Positions 9,277-43,900 of a DNA stretch of 64,000 bases are shown here, piece after piece. A program made the translations under genes and the position numbers. Position 1 is the first letter of the stretch. Every line of letters begins with the position of its first letter. The notes under the pieces were generated by a model, which had not been told where the DNA came from, made no database searches, and worked only from the letters and a program-made list of their open reading frames with translations. The stretch is from Sipunculus nudus (Eukaryota > Annelida > Sipuncula > Golfingiida > Sipunculidae): assembly GCA_026874595.1 (NCBI GenBank), contig CM049320.1, positions 19,973,714-20,037,713 on the forward strand. The letters run 5' to 3'.

Positions 9277-10790
9277 AAATTTCATGAAAAATAGAAATAT
9301 TCATGACAGATACACATGTACAGACATGCCTGCAATGCCTGCAGATATTGGCCTGATTTTTGGTGTGTAGGCAGATAATGACCAGTTACAGATCGAGTTC
9401 GCGATCGATTTTTGGTGTGTGGGCAGATATTGACCAGTTACAGATTGAGTTCGCGTTTTGTCCCAGTTGACCTACTTTTGATTGTTTTACGGTTCCTGAA
9501 CAGAGAAAATTTCATATAAAATAGACTTTTTTTCGCAATGCTTGCAGATATTGGCCTGATTTTTTGTGTGTGGGCAGATAATGACCAGTTACAGAATGAG
9601 TTCTTGTTTCTTCCCGGTTGACCTACTTTTGAACGTTTAATGCCTCCTTAACTTAGAAAATTTCATGAAAAATAGAAATATTCATGACAGATACACATGT
9701 ACAGACTTTTTTTCACAATGCCTGCAGATATTAGCCTGATTTTTGGTGTGTGGGCAGATATAGACCAGTTACAGATCAAGTTCAAGTTTTGTCCCAGTTG
9801 ACATACTTTTGACCATTTGATGGTGCTCTAACATAGAAAATTTCATGAAAAATATGAAATTTCATTACAAATACACATGTACAGACTTTTTTTCGCAATG
9901 CCTGCAGATATTGGCCTGATTTTTGGTGTGTGGGCAGATATTGACCAGTTACAGATTGAGTTCGCGTTTCGTCCCAGTTGACCTTCTTTTGATTGTTTTA
10001 CGGTTCCTGAACAGAGAAAATTTCATATAAAATATAAATTTTCATGACAAATACACTTGTACAGACTTTTCTTCGCAATACCTGCAGATATTGGCCTGAT
10101 TTTTGGTGTGTGGGCAGATAATGACCATTTACAGATCGAGTTCACATTTTGTCCCAGTTGACCTACTTTTGACTGTTTGACAGTGCTCTAACATAGAAAA
10201 TTTCACAAAAAGTGCACATGTATGGACTTTTTTTTCGCAGTGCCTGCAGATGGGGGCCTGATTTTTGGTGTGTAGGCAGATAATGACCAGTTACAGATGG
10301 AGTTCTTGTTTTGTCCCAGTTGACCTACTTTTGACCATTTGACTGCTCCTGAACATAGAAAGTTTCATGAAAAATAGAAATTTTCATAACAAATGCATAT
10401 GTACTGACTTTTTTTCCTCAGTGCCTGCAGATACCACCCTGATTTTTTATGTGTGGGCAGATAATGACAGTTACAGATCGAGTTTGCGTTTCGTCCCGGT
10501 TGACCTACTTTTGATTGTTTTATGGCTCCTAAACATAGAAAATTTCATGAAAGACAGAAATTTTTATGGAAAATGCACATGTTTGGACTTTTTTTCACAA
10601 TGCCTGCATATACTGGCATGATTTTTAGTGTGTTGCTTGATAATGACCCGTTACAGATCGAGTTTGCATTTTGCCCTTGTTGACTAACTTTTGACCATAC
10701 AACACCTGAACTTAAAATTTTTTTCCAAATTTTACAAATGTTTCTAATTTGCCCCAAGCGGGGGCATTCGTGTCGTTCCGACACATCTAG
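9277..10790 (+). mobile_element. tandem array of ~181-bp units with Helitron-like 3' end (Pearl/helentron-like)
   Basis: About eight diverged copies of a unit containing ...ctgcagatattggcctga, tttttggtgtgtgggcag and tcccagttgacctacttttg. Anchor copies start near 9351, 9551, 9733, 9914, 10094, 10256, 10437 and 10617, so the spacing is about 181 bp with one ~19-bp deletion. The right end carries two GC-rich hairpins (10751-10765 and 10770-10784), then AT and CTAG at 10787-10790, followed by T-rich flank. Hairpin plus CTRR is the classic Helitron 3' end. Tandem-core elements of this size (Pearl elements) are known from bivalves; the family link is inference. The 5' end was not located. Confidence 0.7.
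10751..10790 (+). other. double hairpin plus CTAG terminus
   Basis: GCCCC-AAGCG-GGGGC at 10751-10765 and GTGTCG-TTC-CGACAC at 10770-10784 are perfect stems, followed two bases later by CTAG (10787-10790). It is the likely 3' end of the upstream tandem-core element. Confidence 0.65.
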
Positions 10791-17268: not shown

Positions 17269-20200
17269 GCAAGTATATATTGATTGTTGTCTCCTGGAGT
17301 GTGTTGATTCAGTTTTGTGGTTTTTCTTCAGTGTTAATTTAACAATAGCTTCCCACATTCAGAGAGAGTGTATTATTTTTCTTTGGGATGCATACATATG
17401 TATGCAGAGTAAGTCAGAAATCACAAAAATTCTACAGAAAAGGTATGTGAATAATTTGCTTCAATACAGTGAAACATCTCAAACACAAAAACCAGCAGAA
17501 CATAGGACTTTGCTTGTAATAGAGAGGTGCATATATATGAGAGGATAATTTGTATCACCCAACACTCTGTAGGATATTAAACACCTATAATTATTACGTA
17601 CAGCCAAGTCCACATTAAATAAAGCAGTTTAAACTGTGTTATTTAAACTTTTAGTAGGTACAGATGTCCAATTATTCTACCAAATACTAGCACATTATGC
17701 TACATAAGATGACCTATAAAATGTTGTTCTAAAATAGAAAAAATACACTTATCAATGATCTTATATCTGTCATATGACAGTGTTACCATAAAATGAGTGT
17801 ATCAAAATGTTGCTTTCTCCATAAAAAAAATGTAGGATTTTGGTGACCAGCATATGAAATTTCATTTTGCAAGTTTAGGAGGTCAAAAAACTTATGAACA
17901 ACTCATACTGAACAGCTTGTAAGCTATTTTGATCAATATACAGAGTGAACATTAATATTGAGGTGCCTCGTGCATGGTATAAGCTTAAGTGGAAGACCAG
18001 GTATGCTGCCATTACCAAGGTAGCAAAAAGCCACAATCTATACCATTGACAAATGTTCATAATAATACAGGTTCTTGGGCAGGCTATGTATAATAATACA
18101 GCCTCGTGGGCAGGCTGAATAGTCTGCTGTATAGTCTGTGGAGCAACATATGCTCTTGTAATAATTGCCATATTTGACACTGTAGGTCATACCTGTGACA
18201 AGTGGGACAAACTGGAGTGGTTCCACTAATGTTTGTAGATTTCCATAAAGCTTTTGATTCAACCCATACATTGCTCATATGGCAAGGACTCAGGCTGGTG
18301 AGGGAAATGATTGGAACAGCACATATTGGGGGCAATTATTGGCACAGCCTGTGCTCAAGCATTGTGACCTTTAATATTTGTCATAGAAATTGTGCTACAA
18401 GACTGGGACCTGTACCCTGTAATATTGGATACACTGGTATTCCAGCACAACCAAGGGTGTTATTACAGAATCTGTTATATATAAAACATGACAACCTATG
18501 AACTATAGCTGAACCAACATATATTGTCTATTTTGTTGTGTTTTACAAGTTTTGCCTGGTTACCACCTCCCTTCCCATCCCTTCAAACACAGGTTTAAAA
18601 CACCCCTTGATTTTTATTATAATAACAGTTTGATAATGTATGTTTGACCCTTGACCTATTTACATATATATATATTAATTATTTATTTAATCTAGACTCC
18701 TCTGTAGTGAAATGTCACTGCCAAGACCCAACCACTTTACTAGAAACACTGAAATATTAACCAATATCTTCATTTGATAAATACATATTTAAGAAAATGA
18801 ATATCTGTAAAATTGCTTCTTTGCTATTTTGCTTTATTCCCCCTTTTTACATGAAAAAGTATTAGCAGTTCATATCAAATTGGTAATATTTACATAATCA
18901 TAAACTGTAAAGTTTACTTAAATATATTGGAAAAGTCATGTAGGCCAAGGCACTTTTTCAGCAGTTTCTGTATGTGGGTCCTGTATTAGACTTAAGAGGG
19001 AGCTAACCACTAACTGTTATGTTGACCAGGGCCACCATAACTTGGTCAAATAGAGAATGAGAGCGAGAGAGATAACCAGTTGTGTTGAATGATTAGATAC
19101 TCATTGGTAAAATTATCAAAACTGCCAGGATATATTTTACTGATTATTATATGATTATGAACACTAAATATTCAACAGTAACAAAGGTTTCATTCATAGT
19201 TTTTCATTGATATAACTTGAGAAGGATATTAATTAAATTTTCTTAATTCTTAATTTCTATACATTGAGTGTTTGATCTGTGTTTAGCTGGAGCAGGCTCT
19301 GAAGCTGGAGAATGGCCAGCCAAGTATCAGCGACACCGGGAACAAGTCTCTCGTGGAGCAGAACATCGAGCTCAGACGCAAGCTGGAGGATGAGCACAGC
19401 AGCTACAAGCGCAAGCTGACAACCTACCAGGAGGGACAGCAGCGCCAGGCTCAGCTGGTGCAGAAACTGCAATCCAAGGTACAAAATTTATTATACATGT
19501 ACCATCTTCAGTAACAGGGTTCATAAGGGGCCTCTGAAAAACCATGAAACTCCAAGAATTTAAAACTGCAGAACTGAAGTACATAAACATGTTTCATTTA
19601 ATCACTAGAAATCCTTACATAATTAAAAAAATAACCATGTTCCAAGAGTAACAAAATAACCAGAAATCCCTAAAGTCCTTAAATTTTGGACTTGTGCAGT
19701 TCTGTCTTTCAGTTTTATTGGATACTGAACAAATTTTATTGAATACTGGAGAAAGTTATTTGAATAGTGAAAAGTCAGACTGATGGCTACAAGGTTCTAG
19801 TCTCAACAATTAATGCCAGTAATTATATAAATATCCTCAGTGAAGAAAATATCACAGTCTTTGTGGCTGTAGATAATAATTGCTAATTACCATTCAATTA
19901 GCATTCAGGGTCAGGTACGTAATTAACAATCATTAAATAATTCGTTAACTAATTGAGTTCTCATCAGGTCCGTACCTGCCAATTTTGCAACTTTACGTGT
20001 CAAGACTATTATAGACTGTGATTAATTGAAATTTCACCTGATGTTTACTCTGGCAACCTCCTCTAAACAAATCCTCTGTGGGAGAAGTTGGTTTTCTGAA
20101 ACTGTTGGTACCGTGACTACTTTGTTTCCTATAAGAAATTCCAGTCCACTCTGCAGCAGTAGCTCTCCATCCTGTAAAGATAATATTGACCTCAGCATCA

Positions 20201-23200
20201 ACATATCCTTCATCTTACAACCAGACCATCTTTGGATTTTATCATATTTGGCTGCAGGGATAAAGTGATTGATTTTTTGCTCAGAAACTGTAATTGCAGG
20301 AACTTTAAAATTCTGCCACAGATTGCTAAATCTTTTTCCATAAAGATGTTTTCATACATGGGTCGTCTGCATTATGTAAGTATAAACCACCAAAGTTGGT
20401 ATTTTTCTGGAAATTGATGTTGCATAGCATTTAGTTAAATCATAATTATTAATTGTATATTGTAAAGATGTTTATTTTATATGTGGGATGATTTGATAAG
20501 CTGATGATAATTAAATAATAAATAATAATAATAAATTATTGCATTTTAAAATCAACTTGACTTAACATAGTATCCACTTTACATTCTGTTTGTTAAATGA
20601 TATATATTATGGCAGTAAATGTACATTGTTTTACTTTTAATGTGCTCTCTGTTTCAGCAGTCATGGGATATATAGGTGCTGAGTTTTGTCTAACATGTTT
20701 TACAGCTCAGTGTTTCACCTGAAAAGCAACATGCACTATTTTCTTTTATTTTGTTTTTCAGGTTGACATCACTGATATATGCATGCCTGTTAAAATATCA
20801 CTGACATTTCTTTAATTTTGACATCTTCACAAATCAGGATATCTAACAAATCAAGAAGAAAAGAGTTATATATATTATTATATATATTTATATGCTCAAC
20901 AGAGCATCACTCTTATGATTTATAAAGTGACACTTTGATTCAATGTTGTATGTAAAGAAAAATTTATTGTGAATTTGTAATGGCTACAGTCAAACTCAAA
21001 TGGATGCATTTTAAAGTGAAAAAGAAAGAAATACTTTATTCTGGAATAAACTAACACACTAACCTTAATAAGTGAAGTATGTAATTGGGATAAGAATATT
21101 AGAAATAATACAAGGGCCTTATGATATTTTTACAAAAGAATAGAAAAAAGCTGGTTTTTAGTGTGGATCCATTTAAGTAAACCAGTAATACTTTGTTCAC
21201 ACTGCATCAGTTTGGTCTGCAGTAGTCTGCTTGGATAAGTATACAGTAGTTTGGTTTAGTTAAGTCTAGTTAACAGTAAAGCAATTCCTAGTGTATATAG
21301 GCAAATCTTTTCTAGTCTGCATGGGGCCAGTTTTGTGACAATTTGTCCCAATCTTTGTTTCAGTATCACAGACAGAAATGTTTTATTGAACAAACCAATT
21401 TAGGCTTTTGTGAAACGAACTTCAGTGCGGGTACAAAGCATACTATTCCATACTTAAGTAAACCGATTTAGTATAATTTTGATTTAGACCAAACCAAGTG
21501 CGGACACAGCCTTAGTGCATCATACGTCATAACTGATTTTAAGGACTTGTTTACTTTTCAGTTAATAGAGTACAGGCAGCGGGTGAGCCTAGTTGAGGAT
21601 GAGAATCGTCAGTATCGGTATCAGGTTAGCTAACGATCTTCTAGGCTTGCAAATGTTTCTGTTCATTTACTATTGGTTTTGGTGCTGTTTATGTGTATTC
21701 ACAAGATGAAACACTGTATGTTTATGTTGTTTGTATTCTATTATTAGTGGCTAAGTGATGTGAAATAGAAATTCCAAACTGATAAATTTTACCATGAAGA
21801 GAGTGAACATCAGGAAAAATTAACATAACAGTCAAGATTAATATCTGCTTGTCTAATTATCCTTGACACTATTATCATTTTTGCCATCATCAGCATACTA
21901 GGTAGAAATGGTAATAAAAATGAAGTTTTGAAAGATACAGCCAAGATAAGCAGATTAGTGTCTTGGAGTCTTAATGTGACAAGTGCCATACAGCAGCCAT
22001 CATTAGTTGTAACATAATGTCCAATCCAGATTTTTTTTGGAAAATTCAAATTATGAATCGACAGTTTGAATTAAATCCAGTGGATAGTTTTATCATTTGA
22101 TATAACAAAACATTATGATACATGTGATGAAAATAATTGTCCACTTTTGATCACATCAAAATACAGATGTGGAAATAAGATCCTTCTTTTAGTTTCTTTT
22201 TTATATTTTTTATGTTCCAGAACTTGGCGGGATCATTTACATTAAAAAATATTTATCTTTTATTTAATTCATTTGTATTTTTTTTTTCATATAGCATTAT
22301 TAAGTTTGTTATGATATTAAGAGCAGATTCAATTTACCTACTTTTATCAAATAGTTGATAAAATCAGTTTATAATTTTAAATTATTTAAATCCAAGGAAA
22401 TACATTTATTTTATAATTTTAAAATTTAATATCATTTAGTACATCAAATGATTATAAAGATGAAAAGTACAATTCTCTGATCATTTAGGTTAACAGTGGC
22501 AATATATATCAGTAGTTTAATGTTAACACTATTAAGTGTAGAGGTCAATTTAGACATTTTAACTTTTATATTTTTAAATTTACCGCTAACATGTGTACAG
22601 TACTATAGTAAATTTTATGTTAACCTAACACCAACTTTTGTCCACAGTTGGCTCACTGTACCACACAGTATGAGAGCCTGAGAGATGTCTTTGTCTGCCA
22701 ACAGAGGGCGGTAAGAGCATCTCTCCCTTAAGCTGATTTGCATATGCATGCACTCAGTCTTTTATTTATGCATGGGATACTAGGTTTAGCAATGGATCAT
22801 GGGACTGGTGTCTATGTCATGTGTATGCAAATAGGGTGCATGGGGTCATAGTTGGTCACTGTCAGATCTATGTGTCAATAGAATACAGATGAATTTACTG
22901 TAAAGATATGATATCCTCAACTGAGAGATTTTCAGCAAACAACTGAGAGAGTCTGTTTTAAAGTAATATCAGGTTCTCAACCACAAAAGGTATATTTATA
23001 AGAATCAGAATTTGATAATTGTCTGCATGCAAGCTTCAATAAAGACAATATAAAGTTAATAAAGCTATGCAAAATATTACAAAGCTGTTCCAAATTGCCT
23101 TTTCTTTAATAATAAATTTAATATCAGTACTGATAAAAATAGAATATTTCTGAAGAAAAAGGCAGTAAGTGATGCACACAGTTCAGAAACATTTTCAATA

Positions 23201-26200
23201 AATACCGTCATCTGTTAGAATCAGTTTTCTTTAAAGGGAGGCTAACTCTAAAGGATTTTTTTAAAAACAAATAATATACTTAAGAACCTCAAAGCTTAAC
23301 CATCATATATTTAGCTTAATTACTGAGAAATCTTTAGGCAACTGTTTTAAACTGTATATTCATGATCTGTTGAAAAAAGGGGTATCGTCATTGATCCATA
23401 CTATCATGGACAGTTAATAAACTTGATTACTCCCCGGTCGATCTTTTTTTTCAGGATTATTACTGCATGTGTTACATGTCTAATTAACACAGTGTCTGTT
23501 TCATTTCCAGACTAAATTCCAGCATGGCATAGCTTGAGGGGTGCTACACTAGGTATAAATGCTTGCATATGTAGTAACAAACATGCATGGGGTTAAAGGT
23601 CAATTTAATTTGCATAGGGTTAAGGTTGCTTTGCATGATGGGATTGCATGTCTCTGTAGGTACTGCAGTATAAGCGAAAATGTGGTGAGCTTGAGGAGCA
23701 GAATCGTACGCTGCAATCTGAAGTGGACCGTGCCCGCAAATCTGTAAGTTCTTGTGTGCTCATGACATCTGTGGGTGACCTTGACCTTCATTCTTCAAGC
23801 TATGTACATATTGCCAGCCTTCCTGGCTTTAGTCCGCCTGGCAGCATTTTTCAGTGACCTTGACCATTGTGCTTAAGCTTCCAGCTAGGTATATCTTGTC
23901 AAACACCTGTGTCATTTACTGTATTTATCAGTGACCTTGACCACTGTTTTTGTAAACCTAGTGGGTAAGTTATACAACCATGTTAAATGTCACTTTCTTA
24001 TTAAATTGATAAAAGACTTTTTTTATTTTGACAAAATTTGCTTGAATAAGACATTTAAATATCAGGTTCAAAAGGTCTTTTATAAAGTTAATTTCAGTTA
24101 ATTAAGAATTAAATTGTGAGACATTTATTGCAACCAACTTTATTTTCAATGTAAAGATGACACACCTATTGTGATACTTTAAAATTTAAAAAGTACCTCC
24201 TCTCGTATCTTTGACCGTAACTGCTTGATATGTATCTTAATTCTTAATGTAAGGATATTTGAGTATTTACTTCTAGAATGATGTATCATCAGGCACAACC
24301 TTCATAAAACATGACATAATTAACAATTAGTTACATTATTACAATATATTTGAATTCATTCTTTCTTTCACAAGTGACGATGGACCATTCTGTTGCTGTG
24401 ATATATTCAAGGATGCAAAAAGAATTATTCTTTATAATAAAGTTCACTCAGTCTGACAGTTAATTTATCAGAACCCAATAGGCTTACAGAAAGCCATTTA
24501 GTGCAGACCCACTTAGGGGGTCTCACACTGATGTTGTTCACTTTAAGAGGGCCCAGATTGACTGATTTTCCCATGAAGATTGTCACAAAGTTTACCCAGC
24601 ATGGGGCATGCAGGACAGTCTGTCAGACTTGGTATATCATGTGCCGGCCCTTCCAGTACAGAACAATAGTATTACTATTGTCATGTTTTGCATGTGAAAA
24701 TGATTAAGCATGATTGGTACTTTTAACTTCAACATTGCCTGCTTCAGTTGGGAGTGGTCTAGGCATTAGCGTTGTATGCTTGGGCTTGGGGATATGAGCT
24801 GTCTGTTGAGTATCTGTGTGTTTCTGTTTTTCTTTCATTTATGTGAATGTTTGTTCATGATACACAGTTATTATGCATATATTTATATAGCTTAAGAAAA
24901 ATTCAACCTACACATTAATTATGCACATAGGCTTTTTGAAGAATGAAAAGAGAGTTAATTAAAAGAGCTTTAAGAGAGCTTTTTAAGCTGCCATTTTCCA
25001 CCTCAAAAAACATCTTGATTCAGTGTCAAGCATATTGCTTTGGCAAGCTCTTTTACATGTTAATTTGAAAGTTATTTTCAACAACAAAACAGGAAAAATG
25101 TGGAAGCATTTCTATGGTTACATCAAGTTAACCATTAAGTTAGATAATATTCAGATTCAGATGTGTTGTCTTTTTTTACTAAATATGCACTGTATAAATT
25201 ATAATGTTAAATATTCATTCTTCTCCGAGTATTGAATATTACTTAACCAATATTAGTATTCTCGATTACAGTTGAGAATCTTTAGCTGTTAATAAATCTC
25301 AAGAAGTTTATATTGGTCACTGTCAGTGGTCATAATCCATATATTAAACAGAAAAGATTCTTGTTAACTATTATTTAGAGGAAAGCTATATTAAGTATTT
25401 CTAAATTAGTCAATGTGTACATACATGGTTATGAGTACAATTTGCATAGGAAAAATACCAGTTGTTTTAATCATTCCGCTGCTGTTGAAGTAAATTCAGT
25501 TGAATAAAACCGCAGTGACTTAATAATAGGGATATAATGTAACGCCCCCTATAGTCAACCTGTGTTTAAGTGCACATAGAGGACCACCAAAGTTTCTCAA
25601 GTGATTCCCTCCTAATTGATCAGAATACAGTGAATGGTCGGATATCAACTTTCACTGCGTGGCCTCTGACAGCTCATTGCTGAAGTCATAAGTTTACTTC
25701 TGCACGACCATTCAGTAAATTGTGAGCCAGTGTTTACATGTGTACAAGTTAACCTTAACCCGGGGCATGGTAGCAATCAAATAAATGAGTGGGGGGCAAA
25801 CAAACACTGAATTAGTCAATGTACCTTGTTTGTGCTCTAGGTCAGAGTGAGGGTTTGACTATATGTTCATTTGCTCCCTACAAATATTTGAAATTACCAC
25901 TGGCACAGTGGTAGCACAGATATGTATTGTCCAGAGTCATATCAGTATAACTGTAAATACATACAACACTGATTAACCTTTCTGTATAAGGACACTCTCA
26001 GTCATTGGTCCTCCCCGTAGTGTTATAATAAGTTGCTGCTCAGGCAGGTTTAGGAGGGAAAATCTTGAGCAGCGTAAGTAAGGATTTTTTTCTTGCAAGT
26101 AGATAAAATCATTTAAAGCATGCTTGGATGTGTCAACAGATTTGTTGCAATGGAAAAGACTTTAGTGTTGTGTAAAAACTGCATAACAAACGCTCATATT

Positions 26201-29200
26201 ACTGCAATTCAGTTGTGTTAAACATAATAATGCAAATGAAAAGCATATAGTGTGTAATGAAGGGGTATCTTGCAACTCTGTGTAAATTACCGGGATACCA
26301 TGCATAAATTATATTACTTAATAGCTAGGATTCCTTGCTTAAATACTTGGTTACGTTGAACAAGTTTTTTTAAAGTGCTGTGTTATCATGCTAGCGCTGT
26401 ATTAAATGCCAGCTTACCAAAAAACTTGAGTGATATGCCTGACACCTTTACAAATACAACGAGAAAATGCTGTATTGTGAAGGAGATATATGGTATATAT
26501 TTTTACTGCATTCCAAGATTACACAAGTGATCTCAGTAAAGTCCAGGATGTTGAGTCCTGAATTTTTAATGACAGTTTAATAAAAACACAAAAAAACTTA
26601 ATTGATGTCACAAAAAGAATTACATGTAAATAGTAGTTCATACAAATGTAAATATTGTTCATGTAAACATGAATAGTGTATGCATACACTGCCAAAATTA
26701 ATTTCTTGAAAATATATTTCATATCCAAAGACAATTTTTTCTTTTGACAAGATATCCTAAAGGTATTTTTTTCTTGATTAATAGGCAGCATGCTTAAAGT
26801 TAAGAAAATATATTTTTATATTCCCTTAACACAAGATATAGTATCTTTTCATAAGTAAAATTTCATTCGTCATAATATCCCAAAATATTTTTATTTGGCA
26901 TAAGATATTTTCTGATAGAAAAAAATAAATGATTTTATCAAAAGGAAACAGTTCTTATCATAAGAAATGTTTTCTTTACCATAACAAGAAGATTTTTCTT
27001 CCCCCACGCCAAGAAAATTATCTTAAATTTTTCAAAAAAATATTTGTGGGAGTGTACATATAAATGTAAATTTATAATGTGCCATTAGTAGATTACTATA
27101 TTATAGATTAAATTTAATATACTGTGTATCAGTTGGTGTCTTTTCACAATTTTCTGTGAGTTGACTATTATTTCATACTAAATAATACTAATAAGAATAA
27201 TCACTACTTATTATTTGTTTATTTAGTACAATCTTATCCTTGTCTTACAGCTTCAGAACTCGCAGGATACGCTCCAGTCCCGCCTTGACAGGATGGCAGA
27301 CGACGACCGCAGTGTGGATCTAGACAGCACCCTGATCAAGCTTGAAGAGGAGCAGCAGAGGTCATTAGCATATCATTTGAATATTAATTTGCATAATTAT
27401 AGATATTTTTACATGAGGATTGAACTCACATTTGCTTAACTAAAGATTTAGGTTAATCTTTTTGTCACATCTAATGGTTTCAATCAACATTTGTATCATT
27501 GGAAGATGATAGAGATTTTTAACTTAGAAATATATTGACAAATAACCCATTGTAATTTGATTTGCGGATATTTTGCATAAGGTTTTTGGCCCAAAGGTAT
27601 TAAACATAAATTAGCTACAGATACATTTTATAATTTAGTCTGCTGATATAATACAATTTATTATGTACATATATTACATGTGATAGATTCTCAGTCAACC
27701 AATGGTATGAATTATAATATAACCTACTAGCATCCTTTGACACATGATTGCAAATTAAACATGCTGTAATCCAAAGTGCAGAATACATTAAGGAAAACTA
27801 CTCCAGTGCTAGCTTAGCTCATGTTAACTCCAAGTTGAGGGAACACATCGTTCTCTTTAGTGTTCATGTATAACACTTCATTAGACCAACAATAAGAGTA
27901 CAATCTATGAACCTACAAATACAATACCTTATTTAATCAACAGGAGTGCCAGCCTGGCCCATGTTAACTCTATGCTGAGGGAACAACTGGACCAAGCTAC
28001 GGCAGCCAACCAGTCTCTGACTCAGGACATCCACAAACTGACCCAGGACTGGCAGCGCGCACGCGAAGAACTTGAGGTCAAGGAGAAAGAATGGAGAGAG
28101 GAGGAACAGGTAAAGAATATACAATCATGGAAATGTGAAGAGAAATGAGAAGTGACTGGAAGGTTGTTGTAATGTCACAGAAACTCTTAGTTTGATGAAT
28201 ATGTTTATTTCAGTGTAGAGATGTTATTTTCTTGGATACAAATATATAAGAAAATAATCTTTTTGTTAGATATATGCTATACATGAATTGCATAGTTTCT
28301 AAATAAATTTCCCCTATATTTGGCAAATTCTGTTCTAATTAAACACATGATTTAGAATAGTTTAGAATTAAATGTTTTGAATAATTTAAAGCATTTGCTG
28401 TATTAGGAGGTATTAAAGATTTTATTATGCATAAAAATTTAAACCTTAACTGCTGTCTGGAAATGTTATTAAAGTCACAAGCAGATGACCCAACTCTTTT
28501 GTTTAATTGTCCATAATCAGATACATTACTTCAGAGCAGTTTTAAATCTTAAAGTTTTGATATCTCTTTAGGGCTACTTCATGATGGACTCCTAGATAAT
28601 CATATACAGAGAAAGTTCTCAGTTGTTGCTGGGAGAATGTAGTTCCAAAATCACCACCAGATGTCTCTAGTGTTTGATCTGATTTGCAGTCTGTCAACTT
28701 GTACTTTAGTGCTGAGTGCAGCCAACAGATGTCTCTAGTGTGTTTGATCTGTATTTTTCAGTCTTTCAACGAGTACTTCAGTGCTGAGCACAGCCGCCTG
28801 CTCAACCTGTGGCGTGCTGTGGTCGGGTTCCGCCGTCAGTTCAGCGAGATGAAGACCGCCACCGAGCGGGACTTGTCTCATGTTCGTGCTGATGTCACCA
28901 GAGCTGCTCGCAGCCTCCACTCTGCTTGCCTTAACCTCAGTGCCAACCAGCGCAACATGGACACCCAGTCTCAGGTAACACTTCATTTTATTAATTTCTC
29001 TACATTCTGTTGTATTTTTATTATTTTAAATAACACATTGCAATTTCTCTGTCTTGTATCAAGAAAATCTGCTGATGAATTGTAATAAGTTTTGCAACTG
29101 TGATATTTAAAATTAAATTACTTTAGGTTCCAATGCTTTTCTTGCATTGTTTTTCAAACACAAGTATTTGGCATATTAAAAATCGACATTAACAAAAGAA

Positions 29201-32200
29201 ACTGCAAAATAAACAGTTTATAAACAGTTAATTATCTACACAATATGATTTTATTTCAGAATAGTATCATCATAGTAACTTTTTTTCAAAGCACATTTTG
29301 TTTTAAACAATCCACAGCTGAACTCAAAATAAAAACACCTTATTTCATTTAAAGTTATTTTTTTTTGTGAATACATGTTAGCCAAAGTAATCATAATCTC
29401 AAGCTATCAGCTGTTCATACTTCACCCATGTTCATTAAATACACTATCCAGTACCATTTTACTGCCTGCAAATCCACGTTCTGTTCACACTCCACCTGTA
29501 TTCATTTCTGTTTGATCTGTATTGGTGAAACCACCTGGTGAGATAGTTTTGATACCAAATTCAGTGATACAGTATTTGTAATTGTGCAGTATGAACAGGC
29601 TTTAAATGTGTTGTGTGTCTAATACTGTGGTTGCTTTTTTGTTGGTGAGGGTTTCAAATTCGTGATATTTGCGAAAGGGTATTTATCGCAAAAAATCAAA
29701 CCTTTGTGAATAAGATGTTTTAAACAAAGTTATAAGTAAAAGGTTGAGATCATGAATAAAAATAGGTCAGGTATTTTCAAAAACTGAAATTTTAAATTAC
29801 ATCAGATTTTGCCAATTGCCTGCCATTAACGAACCATGTTTTTGTTAATGAGATTAAGTGCCCTAAATTTCTGATATAATTCATTCATTTAATAATGGTT
29901 ATATTCTGTAATAAGGAATTGTAAGGTCATGAAATTAGAACCCTTGCAAAACACTGAAAAAGTGAAAATTGAGAAATTTTAATCCTGCGAATGTGAAGCC
30001 AACCACAGTATTGTTTCCCCTTTAAATACACAGGAGGAAAAAAATTAGCATGCACTATTACAGGGAACACCATAGGTGAACGAAATATTTTATTGAATAT
30101 TGTACGGAAGACATTTATTTTCTGGTGCAGTTTGAACATAGTGTATGAAATACTGTATGCTGAATTTGGTTTTGGGGAAACTGTATATGACACACTTGTA
30201 GCGTGTAAACAGCTTTATCTACTTTTGAATACTAGTGTTTGCTGATTTTTACAGGTGAACCTGGACAAGGAGCGTTCTGAGCGAGCAAGTTTGGAGGCTC
30301 AGCTGAGGGAGAAGAGTCGCCAGCTGTCAGAAGTCCAGACCAAGTCGGATGGAGCTGCCGCTGATCTGAGTGCCAAGTGAGTGAAAAATGAATAAAAAAA
30401 TGATGGAGCTACCCCTGATCTTTGTGCTAAGTTTGTAAACTTATTAATAAAAAATACAACTCAAGGTTAAATTATTTGAATTTTCAACATGTGGTCCCTG
30501 ATTCAGTCTCTGCTAAAGTTACTATGGCCAAATAGTGAAATTGTTTGGTCCAAGTAGTGACTCCTGGATTATTCTAGGCAACATATTAAGGAAAACTGAT
30601 ATGGCATAAGTTTATAATTATATTTTCATTTCATATTGATATTTTCTAAAGGCAAGCAACATGCTGTTGACCTACAATAAAAAAAAATATACCAATTACT
30701 AGTCAAGCCAATACACTAGAAATGGTGAAAACCATTTATAAAATAGGGGGGGGGATGTATTACAACTCTTTAGTAATGGTATATTAAGTGATAAAAATGT
30801 TACAATAGATTTTCTTGAATTAACTGTTTGTATTACAGTGCTTCATTGCACAAATTGTGAGATATATCAGTAAGGTTGACAGTTCAATGAATAGCAGTGA
30901 GATATGCAAAACTTGTGAAAGGCAAATTTTAAGTGTACAGAAGTGTAATCATGATCTTTGTTAAAGACATCCTTGCTATGCTGTATGTAATCAAGTATTG
31001 TATTCTCCAGGGCATTATATATAAGTTTGTGTCATTTTTTAATATTTTCGCTTATTAATGTTAAATTTATATTGCACGATTACAGGGTGAACGAGCTTTC
31101 TCTGACCATCGAGAAACAGAAGCTGCAGCTGAACGAGAAGGATCGCACAATCGCAAACTTCCAGCGCACCCTGAACCAGATGGAGGCTCGTATGGTGGAG
31201 AACGCCGTTCCTCCCGTCCAACCAGCAGTCGAGGGCGAGGTGCAGACATTGGCTGAACCCGGCACAGCTGATTATGAGAACGATTCCATGCACCAGGCGC
31301 TCCGTAGAATCGCACAGGAAGTGATCGCTGATGCAGACTCTGCTTCATTTGATGATACCCTGAACCCTGGCGAGCTGTCTACCACTGTTATGAATAGGTC
31401 AAGGTCAAACTCACCTGTGGCAAGGTCACCCTCAAGGGCATCTTCAAGGTCACCCATCCGTCGTGCAGGATCTCCTGGCAGAGCTAGGTCGAGGTCACCA
31501 GGTTTTGCGGATTCCACCTTTGCTGCCGTCCAAGCTGCCCTTAACAAACGTCAGCTGCAGGTCAGTGAGCTGAGGAATAAGGTCATATCTGCCAATGAGA
31601 ACGTGAACATGATCAAGAAACAGAACAACGATCTGGAGAACCAGCTGCGACAGGCAGAACAGGAGCTGCTGAGAACAAGAGAAGAACGGGAATCATCGTA
31701 AGTGTTCAACAGTCACTCACAGAACACTGACATATTTCTGTTCCAGCTTTGTAGGAATTCGTTTTGGATCAACAAACACTCAAAAACTGCAGCAGAAAAT
31801 GACACCCAAAAGCAAAGTGCATTGTACTGTTGTTATTACATTGGAATATAGTCAGCTGTAAACCATTGTGACAATAGTGCTGAATCTCTAGCTTGGGTTG
31901 ACTCCAATGTCTCAACAGGATGTGACTTAGGTTGATCCTACCCCCCCCCCCCCCCCCATTCCCTTTTAGAAAATCAGCTAATGGGAAGTAAGAATGAAAT
32001 GCCATCCTTGCCTTCCCTCATCCAACAGTTCCCAGCTATGGACAGCCCTCCAGAAGCTTACCACATTTTATTGTATTTGTCAGACTAAGACAGAGTTTCA
32101 GAAATGGACGGTTGTATTAACTTGTACTTGTACTAAGAAATATAAGAGCTGTCTCAGGGAACTTCAAGAATATTCAACTTTATGCAGGGAAATTATTTTT

Positions 32201-40915: not shown

Positions 40916-43900
40916 TATCTATATATCAGTTCAATATGCTAATTGAGCATCCTGGTATATATCTTTGTATTATATATAAATTTAAAACAATAAATAACCC
41001 TACTTTCAAAAATACTTCATTGAATTAATGAAAAATAAATATATCCATTTATAGATTAAATCCCGAATCTGTTGAACTAGCTGTTACTTTTAGAATACTA
41101 AGCTTATTAAATGTTATAAAGAATTCTTAATAAATCAAATGAAGTCATATTGTTAATAAAACTTCACTAAACTTTTGTATCCAATCAGCGTTTTAATTAA
41201 ATAATAACAATAATAGGGTATTAAGTCATTAATTTTATATCAAATTTTAAAAAAATATTCCATGATGTGGATTAAAATAAATTTGCAGTTGAAACTTTTT
41301 GAAAGGGGTACCAAATTTGTTTCACGTTTTTAAAATTATCAGAAAAATGAGGTGGCAATATTTAAGAAAATTCAGCATTAAAAAGAAAAGATTAAAAAAT
41401 ATATCTTATTCTTAAAGGAATATATGACTAGTAACAAAATGAGCAGTAAATTTTCTTGTGTTACTGATCTTAGAATAAACAGTCTTTATAAACAAAAATG
41501 CACGTTGTTTAAATACAATAATAAAAAAATGGCATCAACAAATAAGCTTTGAAAATTATGTCATGTTTAACCTGACAGATACATGATATATAATTTTACT
41601 TTATATTTATAAAAAGAGATTTGGAAACAAAACCTGTCTTTGTACTCAATTTTAATTCCTGTCCAAATAGAAAATGTATCTACTGATGGGTCCCCAGTCC
41701 TTCACTGTCATTGGATGTGTGAAATGTGTCAAAATAGTGAGTGAATGATGTTAAAATTTACCTTCACTTTTGATTGTTACTGTTCACATTTATATGGTTG
41801 TATTCACCAAGTTTTTGTTGAACTTTAATTTTATCAGGGGCTGTTTAATTATTTTCACATGATGGTCATATTTTGTGGATTAGAATTTATGTTTCTGATT
41901 TTGCATTTTCTTTAAATATAAAAAATGACAAAAAAAATAGCTTTTTCTACTATGGTTAAACATGAAAAATTCAGTGTTTTTAGAAAGCATCTCTAGCAAT
42001 AAGTTGATTTAATTGAATTTTTCTGGATCCCCTCCCCTCTCAGCTGACTATTCTGTTTTAAATTTGACATATACCTTTAATTTTTTATTTTTGGTTTGGA
42101 CTATTGACACCTTATTGAAATTGCTGGTCTTTCTCTGTTTTAGAGCATGTGTGATATAAAAATCATGATTGATATCAGAACTGCATGAGACTCAAGTACA
42201 ACCCTTGCATGTACGAAATTGATATTGTTAATAAATTATTATATAATTTGCATATATTTTACATATCAGCTGAAGAACAGAAGGAGCTGCTGCGTAAGGA
42301 GGTGCTTGACCTGAAGCGTGCTGTGAATGATGAAGCTCGTGACAAGGATACCATTCAGAAGATTGCTGAAGAGTTGCGTGGAAACGTCAAGCGTCTTGAA
42401 GCTGAGAAGACCGACGTTTCTCGCTGCCTTTATGACACCAAGCAGAAGGCCTGCAGTATGTATTGTGACAAACAGTTATTTAATTTGTCCATAACTGTTT
42501 ATACCTTCAGCTTAGAAATTATGTATTATGTGCAATGAAACCTTAAATATATTGAAAATAGTTTTTGAAATCAGTTAAATTATGAAGCACCTAGGAACCA
42601 TTCTCATGACACGATTTTAACAATTCTTTTTGCATGACTATCAAATTTATAAATGCTATATCAGTGGTTTCATGAAATACTCATCTGTTGGAAAGAGCAT
42701 ACATGTTAATGATTTGCAAATTTAAAATTTAATCTATATTAGTCTTTCTGTGTGTATTATTTTGTGTATAATATAATACACCATTTTTTAGCTTGTAAAG
42801 ATGATTGAGCAAAAAAAAAATTATTAGTATTCTTCTGAAATTATTTCTCTATTGGAACGAGATTTGTTTACTCACTAGTTCTGGAGGAGAAGAAAGCAGG
42901 TGTAGAGAAAGAGGCTTCAGACCTGCGTGTGAGCCTGCGTGATGTTGAGAAGGCTCGCTTGGAAGCACGTCGTGAACTGCAGGAGCTGCGTCGTCAGGTG
43001 AAACAGCTCGACGGAGAAAGAAACAAACTGGACAAGGAGGTCAACGAACTTCAGGCTCGTGTCGCTCATGATGAAGAGAAGGAAGAGGAGGCCCGTAAAG
43101 AATCGTTCAACCTCAAGCAGAAGGTATAAATATACTTGTGTCTTTTAAAGGACTCAGTACCTGTCTCAGGTATTTGTAAATATTTCATTAATTTTATCCA
43201 TACCATTATTCCTAACCCTGTACAATAAAACCTGAAATTCAGAAGGCTAAATGATAATTTTTCATTCGTGTCATATGGATACCTTCATCCTCATTCAATA
43301 GACAATGCCTTCAACAGGCCAAAGACTTGCTGTCAAAAAAAGAATAATATCTGTACTGTGACCACTTGAAATATTTATGTTCTGAAATTAAAATGTGTGA
43401 ATTCAACAAAATGAAACAAGAACTACACTCCTCACACAGTGATTATTACTGTTGCCAGTCCAGATCTCTTAGCACAATGTGATACCTTGCTCTTATTTAT
43501 CTGATTACATACCTTTGCCCTGTGCCCACCCTGGTGGTGAAACCTGGAAAACCTTGCTGTATATATAAAGCAGCGGTTAAAGCAAAGATCTGGAACAGTG
43601 TAAAACCACTGTGTAAGGAGTGTAAACAAGAACCAGCAAATCTAAATTCATAATCTACAGTATATATTGCAATATTGATTTAACAATTATTTCCATAGGT
43701 GGTTGAGACTGAGGCAAGCCGCGAGGCCTTGCGTAAGGAACTGTCTAACATGCAGAGACGTATGACTGAGCTTGAGGACGACTTCCGTCTTAAGGAGAAG
43801 GACTATCAGATGGCGCTAGAGGATGGCCGCCGTGTGGAGCGTAAGCTCGATGACCAGCGTCATGGCTTGTCTGTGGAGCTTGAAGCTTGCAGTGCTGAGC

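Follow-up and report, generated by a model that had tools for sequence, protein, structure and literature searches.

Rootletin is the builder of the cilium root; rootlets vary among cell types, and rootletin is usually regarded as a single rod. Could one rootletin gene encode more than one version of this rod? The question is raised by a window of 64,000 nucleotides of the Sipunculus nudus genome (the whole stretch of DNA that was analyzed), where three short exons lie between exon 2 and the common exon 6 (Table 1). A preliminary description of this DNA read them as consecutive phase-0 exons made of whole heptads, any choice or combination of which would keep the frame and the coiled-coil register, and proposed that they form a switch acting locally on the rod. 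The three exons lie where it had placed them; they are open and bounded by AG and GT.

Table 1. Exons, intron 4, and sense-strand TGCATG copies of the rootletin locus (positions in the window).
Feature	Position	Strand	Description
Exon 2	19287..19478	+	64 codons; end phase 0; carries the start of the Rootletin domain (PF15035 positions 1-27 matched)
Single TGCATG	20780..20785	+	Intron 2
Single TGCATG	21318..21323	+	Intron 2; 244 nt upstream of exon 3
Exon 3	21562..21624	+	LIEYRQRVSLVEDENRQYRYQ; 63 nt, 21 codons, 3 heptads; by its sequence an old duplicate of exon 5
Exon 4	22648..22710	+	LAHCTTQYESLRDVFVCQQRA; 63 nt, 21 codons, 3 heptads in register; kinship with exon 5 not measurable
Intron 4	22711..23659	+	949 nt; 8 sense-strand TGCATG
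Three TGCATG after exon 4	22745, 22769, 22837 (22745..22842)	+	35, 59, and 127 nt downstream
Mid-intron TGCATG	23024..23029	+	Intron 4
Four TGCATG before exon 5	23464, 23584, 23632, 23645 (23464..23650)	+	196, 76, 28, and 15 nt upstream
Exon 5	23660..23743	+	VLQYKRKCGELEEQNRTLQSEVDRARKS; 84 nt, 28 codons, 4 heptads; fits Pfam Rootletin best
Exon 6	27251..27360	+	Common downstream exon; start phase 0
Exon 7	27944..28109	+	Common; Rootletin domain
Exon 8	28762..28974	+	Common; Rootletin domain end

With generic splice-site matrices, the acceptors of exons 3, 4, and 5 score 4.7-5.1 and their donors 4.6-9.0, versus 3.2-9.7 and 3.8-8.5 for exons 2, 6, 7, and 8. In all three, the first residue fits heptad position a best, and the eight paths through the trio are all open, which confirms that frame and register are kept whatever is included. 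Introns 2 to 5 contain six exon-like stretches that are open, symmetric, and of phase 0, two of them with a common donor. Exactly exons 3, 4, and 5 are multiples of 21 nt, free of proline, in register a, and score at least 0.7. All of these features together were found in none of 59 exon-like stretches from 200 kb of the same genome, under a score cut chosen with the 0.71 of exon 4 known and splice cut-offs that let the trio in. When the 1.43 Gb genome was searched with exons 3 and 4, the two extra exons, each matched only itself (these counts are lower bounds). A comparison with solved structures gave no match at E 0.01.

How are the three exons related? Exon 3 does align with exon 5, as had been claimed: the BLOSUM62 sum is 33, a value not reached by any of the 1016 overlapping segments of 21 residues drawn from the rod (maximum 28). 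The two share 4 of 21 residues and 31 of 63 nucleotides, with flanks at the level of shuffled sequence. Their agreement at codon positions 1, 2, and 3 is 9, 12, and 10 of 21 each, hence the clear excess of third-position changes expected under protein-level selection is absent. Judged by its sequence, exon 3 is a genuine copy of exon 5, and the duplication is old. Exon 4 had been taken for a weaker relative of exon 5, a kinship that we rejected, as its BLOSUM62 sum of -9 is unexceptional (497 of the 1016 segments reach it). The mutual homology that defines tandemly duplicated exons was found in the exon 3/5 pair and not in exon 4.

The product of path 2-5-6 belongs to the Rootletin family (PF15035), with 231 bits against a curated cut-off of 36 over profile positions 1-187 of 188. 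This is the best fit of all paths, and exon 5 may hence be the main form everywhere. The exon 3 version scores 215.8 bits, above all 20 control inserts (195.0-205.0), and the exon 4 version 201.3 bits, which 5 of the 20 controls equal or exceed. Exon 4 shows a measurable relation neither to exon 5 nor to the profile. This lack of kinship, together with its poor codon usage, fits a scheme where transcripts normally use exon 5, exon 3 serves as an alternative duplicate, exon 4 is a pseudo-exon or a rare one, and the TGCATG cluster of intron 4 controls the skipping of exon 5 alone, for which the four upstream sites could suffice as repressors. We judge the scheme unlikely: exon 4 is open, in phase, made of whole heptads, in register a, and endowed with good splice sites, a combination matched by 0 of 59 random stretches (under a cut-off chosen in view of exon 4), and three TGCATG lie directly downstream of it.

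Codon usage counts against the two extra exons. Their log-odds are -2.8 (exon 3) and -4.9 (exon 4), below each of the 58 constitutive 63-nt chunks (minimum 5.3) on which the score itself was trained. Among random open stretches, 4% and 6% score as high as exons 3 and 4, and none of 714 open intronic stretches does. This bears on the notion that the trio is constitutive, the rod of this lineage being longer here by six heptads and the TGCATG cluster being incidental. The all-inclusive path (exons 3, 4, and 5) is indeed open and scores 222.7 bits, and joint inclusion is not forbidden by frame, intron length, or splice-site type. Still, exons 3 and 4 are unlike all constitutive chunks, the profile favours a single segment, and the cluster flanks precisely exons 4 and 5, so that we regard a constitutive trio as quite improbable.

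A second rootletin locus (60 kb, C15:49.34-49.40 Mb) has a clear homologue of exon 2, and nothing found in it matches exons 3, 4, or 5 convincingly. It was dropped as a test of conservation, as several further coiled-coil exons precede the shared Rootletin part. Rootletin was also sought with exon 8 in bacterial or archaeal contigs and in viral contigs, giving 393 and 26 pattern matches, respectively, none of which was confirmed.

Intron 4 provides an independent sign of regulated splicing, since it contains 8 of the 32 TGCATG of the whole window. This motif, recognized on inspection rather than predicted beforehand, is the most enriched of the 728 hexamers present in the intron: 8 copies stand against an expectation of 0.36 derived from the paralogue and the remainder of the window (p 5.4e-9, or 1.5e-3 after correction for 4096 hexamers and 67 windows). 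For comparison, 3,023 overlapping background windows of 949 nt have 0-3 copies each, 5000 dinucleotide shuffles reach a maximum of 5, and the runner-up among 180 same-letter hexamers counts 2 in the intron. A genome search with the intron 4 sequence returned only intron 4. The copies at 22769, 22837, and 23584 have a common 18-nt context at 72-78%, hence they may not be independent. Within 200 nt, three copies follow exon 4 and four precede exon 5, while the other 46 candidate exons of the gene and its paralogue have at most two per side. The copies at 23632 and 23645 occupy the expected branch point/polypyrimidine tract of the exon 5 acceptor. Exon 3 has no TGCATG copy in the 200 nt on either side. 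Sense-strand UGCAUG is present above chance in flanking introns, as expected of RBFOX-regulated exons.

All eight copies in the intron are on the sense strand and the three antisense CATGCA each overlap one of them, whereas the whole window is nearly balanced (32 sense to 29 antisense). Intron 4 also holds three of the window's 17 perfect POU-type octamers (ATTTGCAT/ATGCAAAT), and part of the TGCATG enrichment could therefore stem from a DNA element. One might go further and see in this TGCATG/TTGCAT-rich intron not a splicing element but a DNA element bearing POU octamers, either an enhancer or an internal promoter. We deem this very improbable, because TGCATG is sense-stranded apart from the overlaps, a bias that a DNA element does not need, and sits at both exon edges in the RBFOX pattern.

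Other regulatory words were counted within 300 nt of the trio, where motifs of QKI, NOVA, PTB, CELF, and HuR occur near expectation. MBNL words after exon 5 number 5 versus 2.3 expected, TGC words before exon 5 number 9 versus 3.5 (TGCATG copies counted in), and secondary RBFOX words after exon 3 number 4 versus 0.9, possibly a weak hint for this exon.

Three RRM exons, in order at C2:71.337-71.342 Mb and 71-80% identical to those of RBFOX (E 5e-12, 2.5e-4, and 0.08, the last weak by itself), indicate that the genome encodes an RBFOX protein. In C. elegans, alternative exons are among the targets of RBFOX (passages of PMC3585155), clustered (U)GCAUG regulates splicing (PMC12435732), and upstream-bound Rbfox typically represses an exon (passages of PMC5633781). 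Given this position rule and the placement of the sites, RBFOX would promote exon 4 and silence exon 5. We consider it somewhat probable that exons 3, 4, and 5 are RBFOX-controlled alternative cassettes for one rod segment inside the conserved PF15035 domain. On this view exon 3 is an old copy of exon 5 that has retained its protein pattern, and exon 4 would be an additional, unrelated segment in register. An RBFOX-family protein on the UGCAUG cluster between exons 4 and 5 would set the choice between them, the downstream sites favouring inclusion of exon 4 and the upstream ones blocking the acceptor of exon 5. RBFOX-rich cells would then produce the mRNA 2-(3)-4-6 and RBFOX-poor cells 2-(3)-5-6, with frame and heptad phase kept in every product. 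More tentatively, and with slightly less than even confidence, RBFOX may swap the charged, YKRKC-type exon 5 (exon 3 being a second version) for the weakly charged, cysteine-containing exon 4, so that ciliated epithelia would build their rootlets from one rod and sensory or neural cells from another, both encoded by one gene.

Is such a choice exclusive? The local switch of the preliminary description gained the TGCATG cluster as a sign of regulation, but nothing built into the locus appears to make it strictly exclusive. Intrinsic devices for it (frame shift on double inclusion, a short intron, a U2/U12 mix) were sought at the trio and none was found. At 1023 and 949 nt, the introns are too long for steric exclusion, the splice sites are plain GT-AG with no U12-type donors by eye, and all lengths are multiples of 3, hence an exclusive choice is not enforced. 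RNA pairing was compared for three of the six intron pairs with eight mononucleotide shuffles, a weak control for AT-rich introns: introns 2/3 (-66.4 versus a shuffle minimum of -57.9) and 3/4 (-61.0 versus -58.8) went beyond the shuffles and introns 2/4 (-62.8 versus -70.4) did not.

Parallels exist for the separate parts of this scheme. Alternative exons of tropomyosin and muscle myosin swap coiled-coil segments with the rod register preserved, although these proteins and their regulators differ from those considered here. Ninein, a centrosomal coiled-coil protein distinct from rootletin, is reportedly switched by Rbfox and Ptbp1 in cortex, in work attributed to Zhang et al. in 2016. Among alternative exons of C. 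elegans, RBFOX (ASD-1/FOX-1) on an upstream-intron UGCAUG represses exon 5B of the egl-15 5A/5B pair (passages of PMC3585155); that gene encodes a receptor and its choice is demonstrated, whereas in rootletin, a coiled-coil rod with eight sites, we infer the choice from sequence. RBFOX also chooses between unc-32 exons 7a and 7b via UGCAUG but, unlike in our scheme, the site after 7b favours 7a, an exception to the position rule, and the partner UNC-75 is required (same passages). Cacna1b e18a is, like exons 3 and 4, a 21-residue cassette, repressed by upstream-bound Rbfox2 (passages of PMC5633781), although in an ion channel rather than a rod. The deep-intronic (U)GCAUG clusters of Ntrk2 likewise act together (PMC12435732), but they sit amid 50-kb introns, and those of rootletin lie next to the two exons that bound an intron of 949 nt.

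For rootletin itself, neither alternative exons nor RBFOX control appeared in the open-access titles and abstract openings among the matches listed, subscription journals being outside this scope. The searched text of a rootlet review (PMC8435291) mentions neither splicing nor exons, the matching passages of PMC9597181 and PMC3563624 deal with different genes or different wording, and no isoforms, splicing, or exons are mentioned in the paper on Drosophila Rootletin (PMC4489026). If our reading is true, a splice switch in a conserved domain, coupled to an established cell-type splicing factor, would offer a genetic handle on the differences in rootlets between cell types.

Three small exons of coiled-coil rod inside the Rootletin domain (PF15035), exons 3, 4 and 5, were recovered at the positions, phase and codon counts first reported for them. 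Each of the eight ways of joining exon 2 to exon 6 gives an open reading frame, and every one of the three exons is a whole number of heptads whose best register is a, so the claim that any choice among them keeps frame and register holds. The path 2-5-6-7-8 identifies the gene as rootletin, with 231 bits against PF15035 (cut-off 36); the statement that vertebrate rootletin has one conserved motif in this place was compared via this Pfam profile only. Splice-site scores of exons 3-5 (generic matrices) are within or above the range for exons 2, 6, 7 and 8. Of six exon-like stretches in introns 2-5 that are open, symmetric and phase 0, the trio alone consists of complete heptads and has a as its best register. 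None of 59 exon-like stretches from 200 kb of the same genome passes these criteria, with cut-offs chosen when the trio was already known.

Features of the rootletin gene and its paralogue
Feature	Position	Description
Minisatellite	9355-10698	unit ~180 nt, 5' of the exons
Exon 2 (end)	19478	phase 0
Exon 3	21562-21624	21 codons, phase 0
Exon 4	22648-22710	21 codons, phase 0
Exon 5	23660-23743	28 codons, phase 0
GTGACCTTGACC, three copies	23775-23942	at 23775, 23854, 23931; directly 3' of exon 5
Exon 6 (start)	27251	phase 0
Copy of exon 7 start, SASLAHVNSKLREH	27805-27850	140 nt 5' of exon 7
Tandem duplication, exon 8 acceptor	28654-28795	72 nt
Tandem duplication, donor of exon at 30255	30348-30454	54 nt
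Further symmetric exon	42270-42455	186 nt, phase 1 (boundaries by eye)
Second rootletin locus (L006-L011)	C15:49.34-49.40 Mb	

Exons 3 and 5 had been aligned residue by residue in the preliminary description, and this kinship is confirmed: their similarity score of 33 is equalled or exceeded by 0 of 1016 rod segments. At the exon 5 position of the Rootletin profile, exon 3 yields 215.8 bits (188.8 with the exon absent), above all 20 control inserts (ten hand-made, 195.0-203.3; ten code-drawn, 195.2-205.0). Exon 4, described as a weaker relative, was rejected as such, since its score of -9 is reached by 497 of 1016 segments and its 201.3 bits, within the control range, are matched or exceeded by 5 of 20 inserts. 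Judging from the sequence, the exon 3/5 duplication is old and its coding part kept its pattern better than the surroundings, because 31 of 63 exon bases are identical and the flanks are no more similar than shuffles. The even spread of identities over codon positions (9, 12 and 10 of 21) counts against a kept coding pattern. A further point against it is codon usage: exons 3 and 4 score under all 58 constitutive chunks, though over all 714 open intronic stretches tested.

The origin of exon 3 may be illustrated by three junction-spanning duplications in the same gene. In that at exon 8, the upstream copy retains an AG and the frame into the exon, hence a possible alternative acceptor adding 24 residues. 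The GTGACCTTGACC repeat is absent elsewhere on the same strand of the window, and GACCTT is the top hexamer of the exon 5 downstream flank. The genome search revealed one further rootletin locus, on the same contig 29 Mb away; there, several additional candidate exons of coiled-coil type separate the exon-2 homologue from the remaining Rootletin domain.

Reading the exon flanks, we spotted repeated TGCATG, an RBFOX-type motif not predicted beforehand. Intron 4 (949 nt), between exons 4 and 5, holds 8 of the window's 32 copies; the frequency in the paralogue plus the rest of the window predicts 0.36 (p 5.4e-9). The background consisted of 3,023 overlapping windows taken from the paralogue, the remainder of the window and 20 sites totalling 200 kb, and none exceeded three copies. 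The copies are on the sense strand, with antisense ones solely as overlaps. In three of them an 18-nt context matches at 72-78%, which may mean that these copies are related; a genome search with the intron matched only itself (with a tool that passes over very frequent words). Three copies lie 35-127 nt downstream of exon 4 and four lie 196, 76, 28 and 15 nt upstream of exon 5, the last two at the expected branch point and polypyrimidine tract. The exon 5 acceptor is pyrimidine-poor (0.53, lowest along with exon 10 among 25 listed). The vicinity of exon 3 lacks TGCATG. Only 5 of 46 other candidate exons of the gene and paralogue have one within 200 nt; the nearest to the exon 4/5 pattern, at 42270, has two upstream (within 200 nt) and one downstream, and is possibly a second RBFOX-controlled cassette.

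RBFOX sites downstream of an exon generally activate it. Upstream binding typically represses, according to PMC5633781. The placement around exons 4 and 5 fits this position rule, and RBFOX RRM exons were found on another contig (C2) of the same genome. Most likely, RBFOX controls the exon 4/5 choice through the intron 4 UGCAUG: when abundant, it would promote exon 4 from the sites 3' of that exon and block exon 5 from those 5' of it, and when scarce, exon 5 would be used. In PMC3585155, worm egl-15 exon 5B is likewise repressed by upstream-bound RBFOX, and the choice of unc-32 7a/7b is also RBFOX-dependent but with a different site position. Clustered motifs act jointly in Ntrk2 (PMC12435732). 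Strict exclusion would have to stem from regulators, because it is imposed neither by frame nor by intron length or splice-site class; mixed products, e.g., 2-3-4-6, may occur. In the protein, exon 4 would replace a charged segment of the Rootletin domain with one of few charges and two cysteines, in the same heptad phase.
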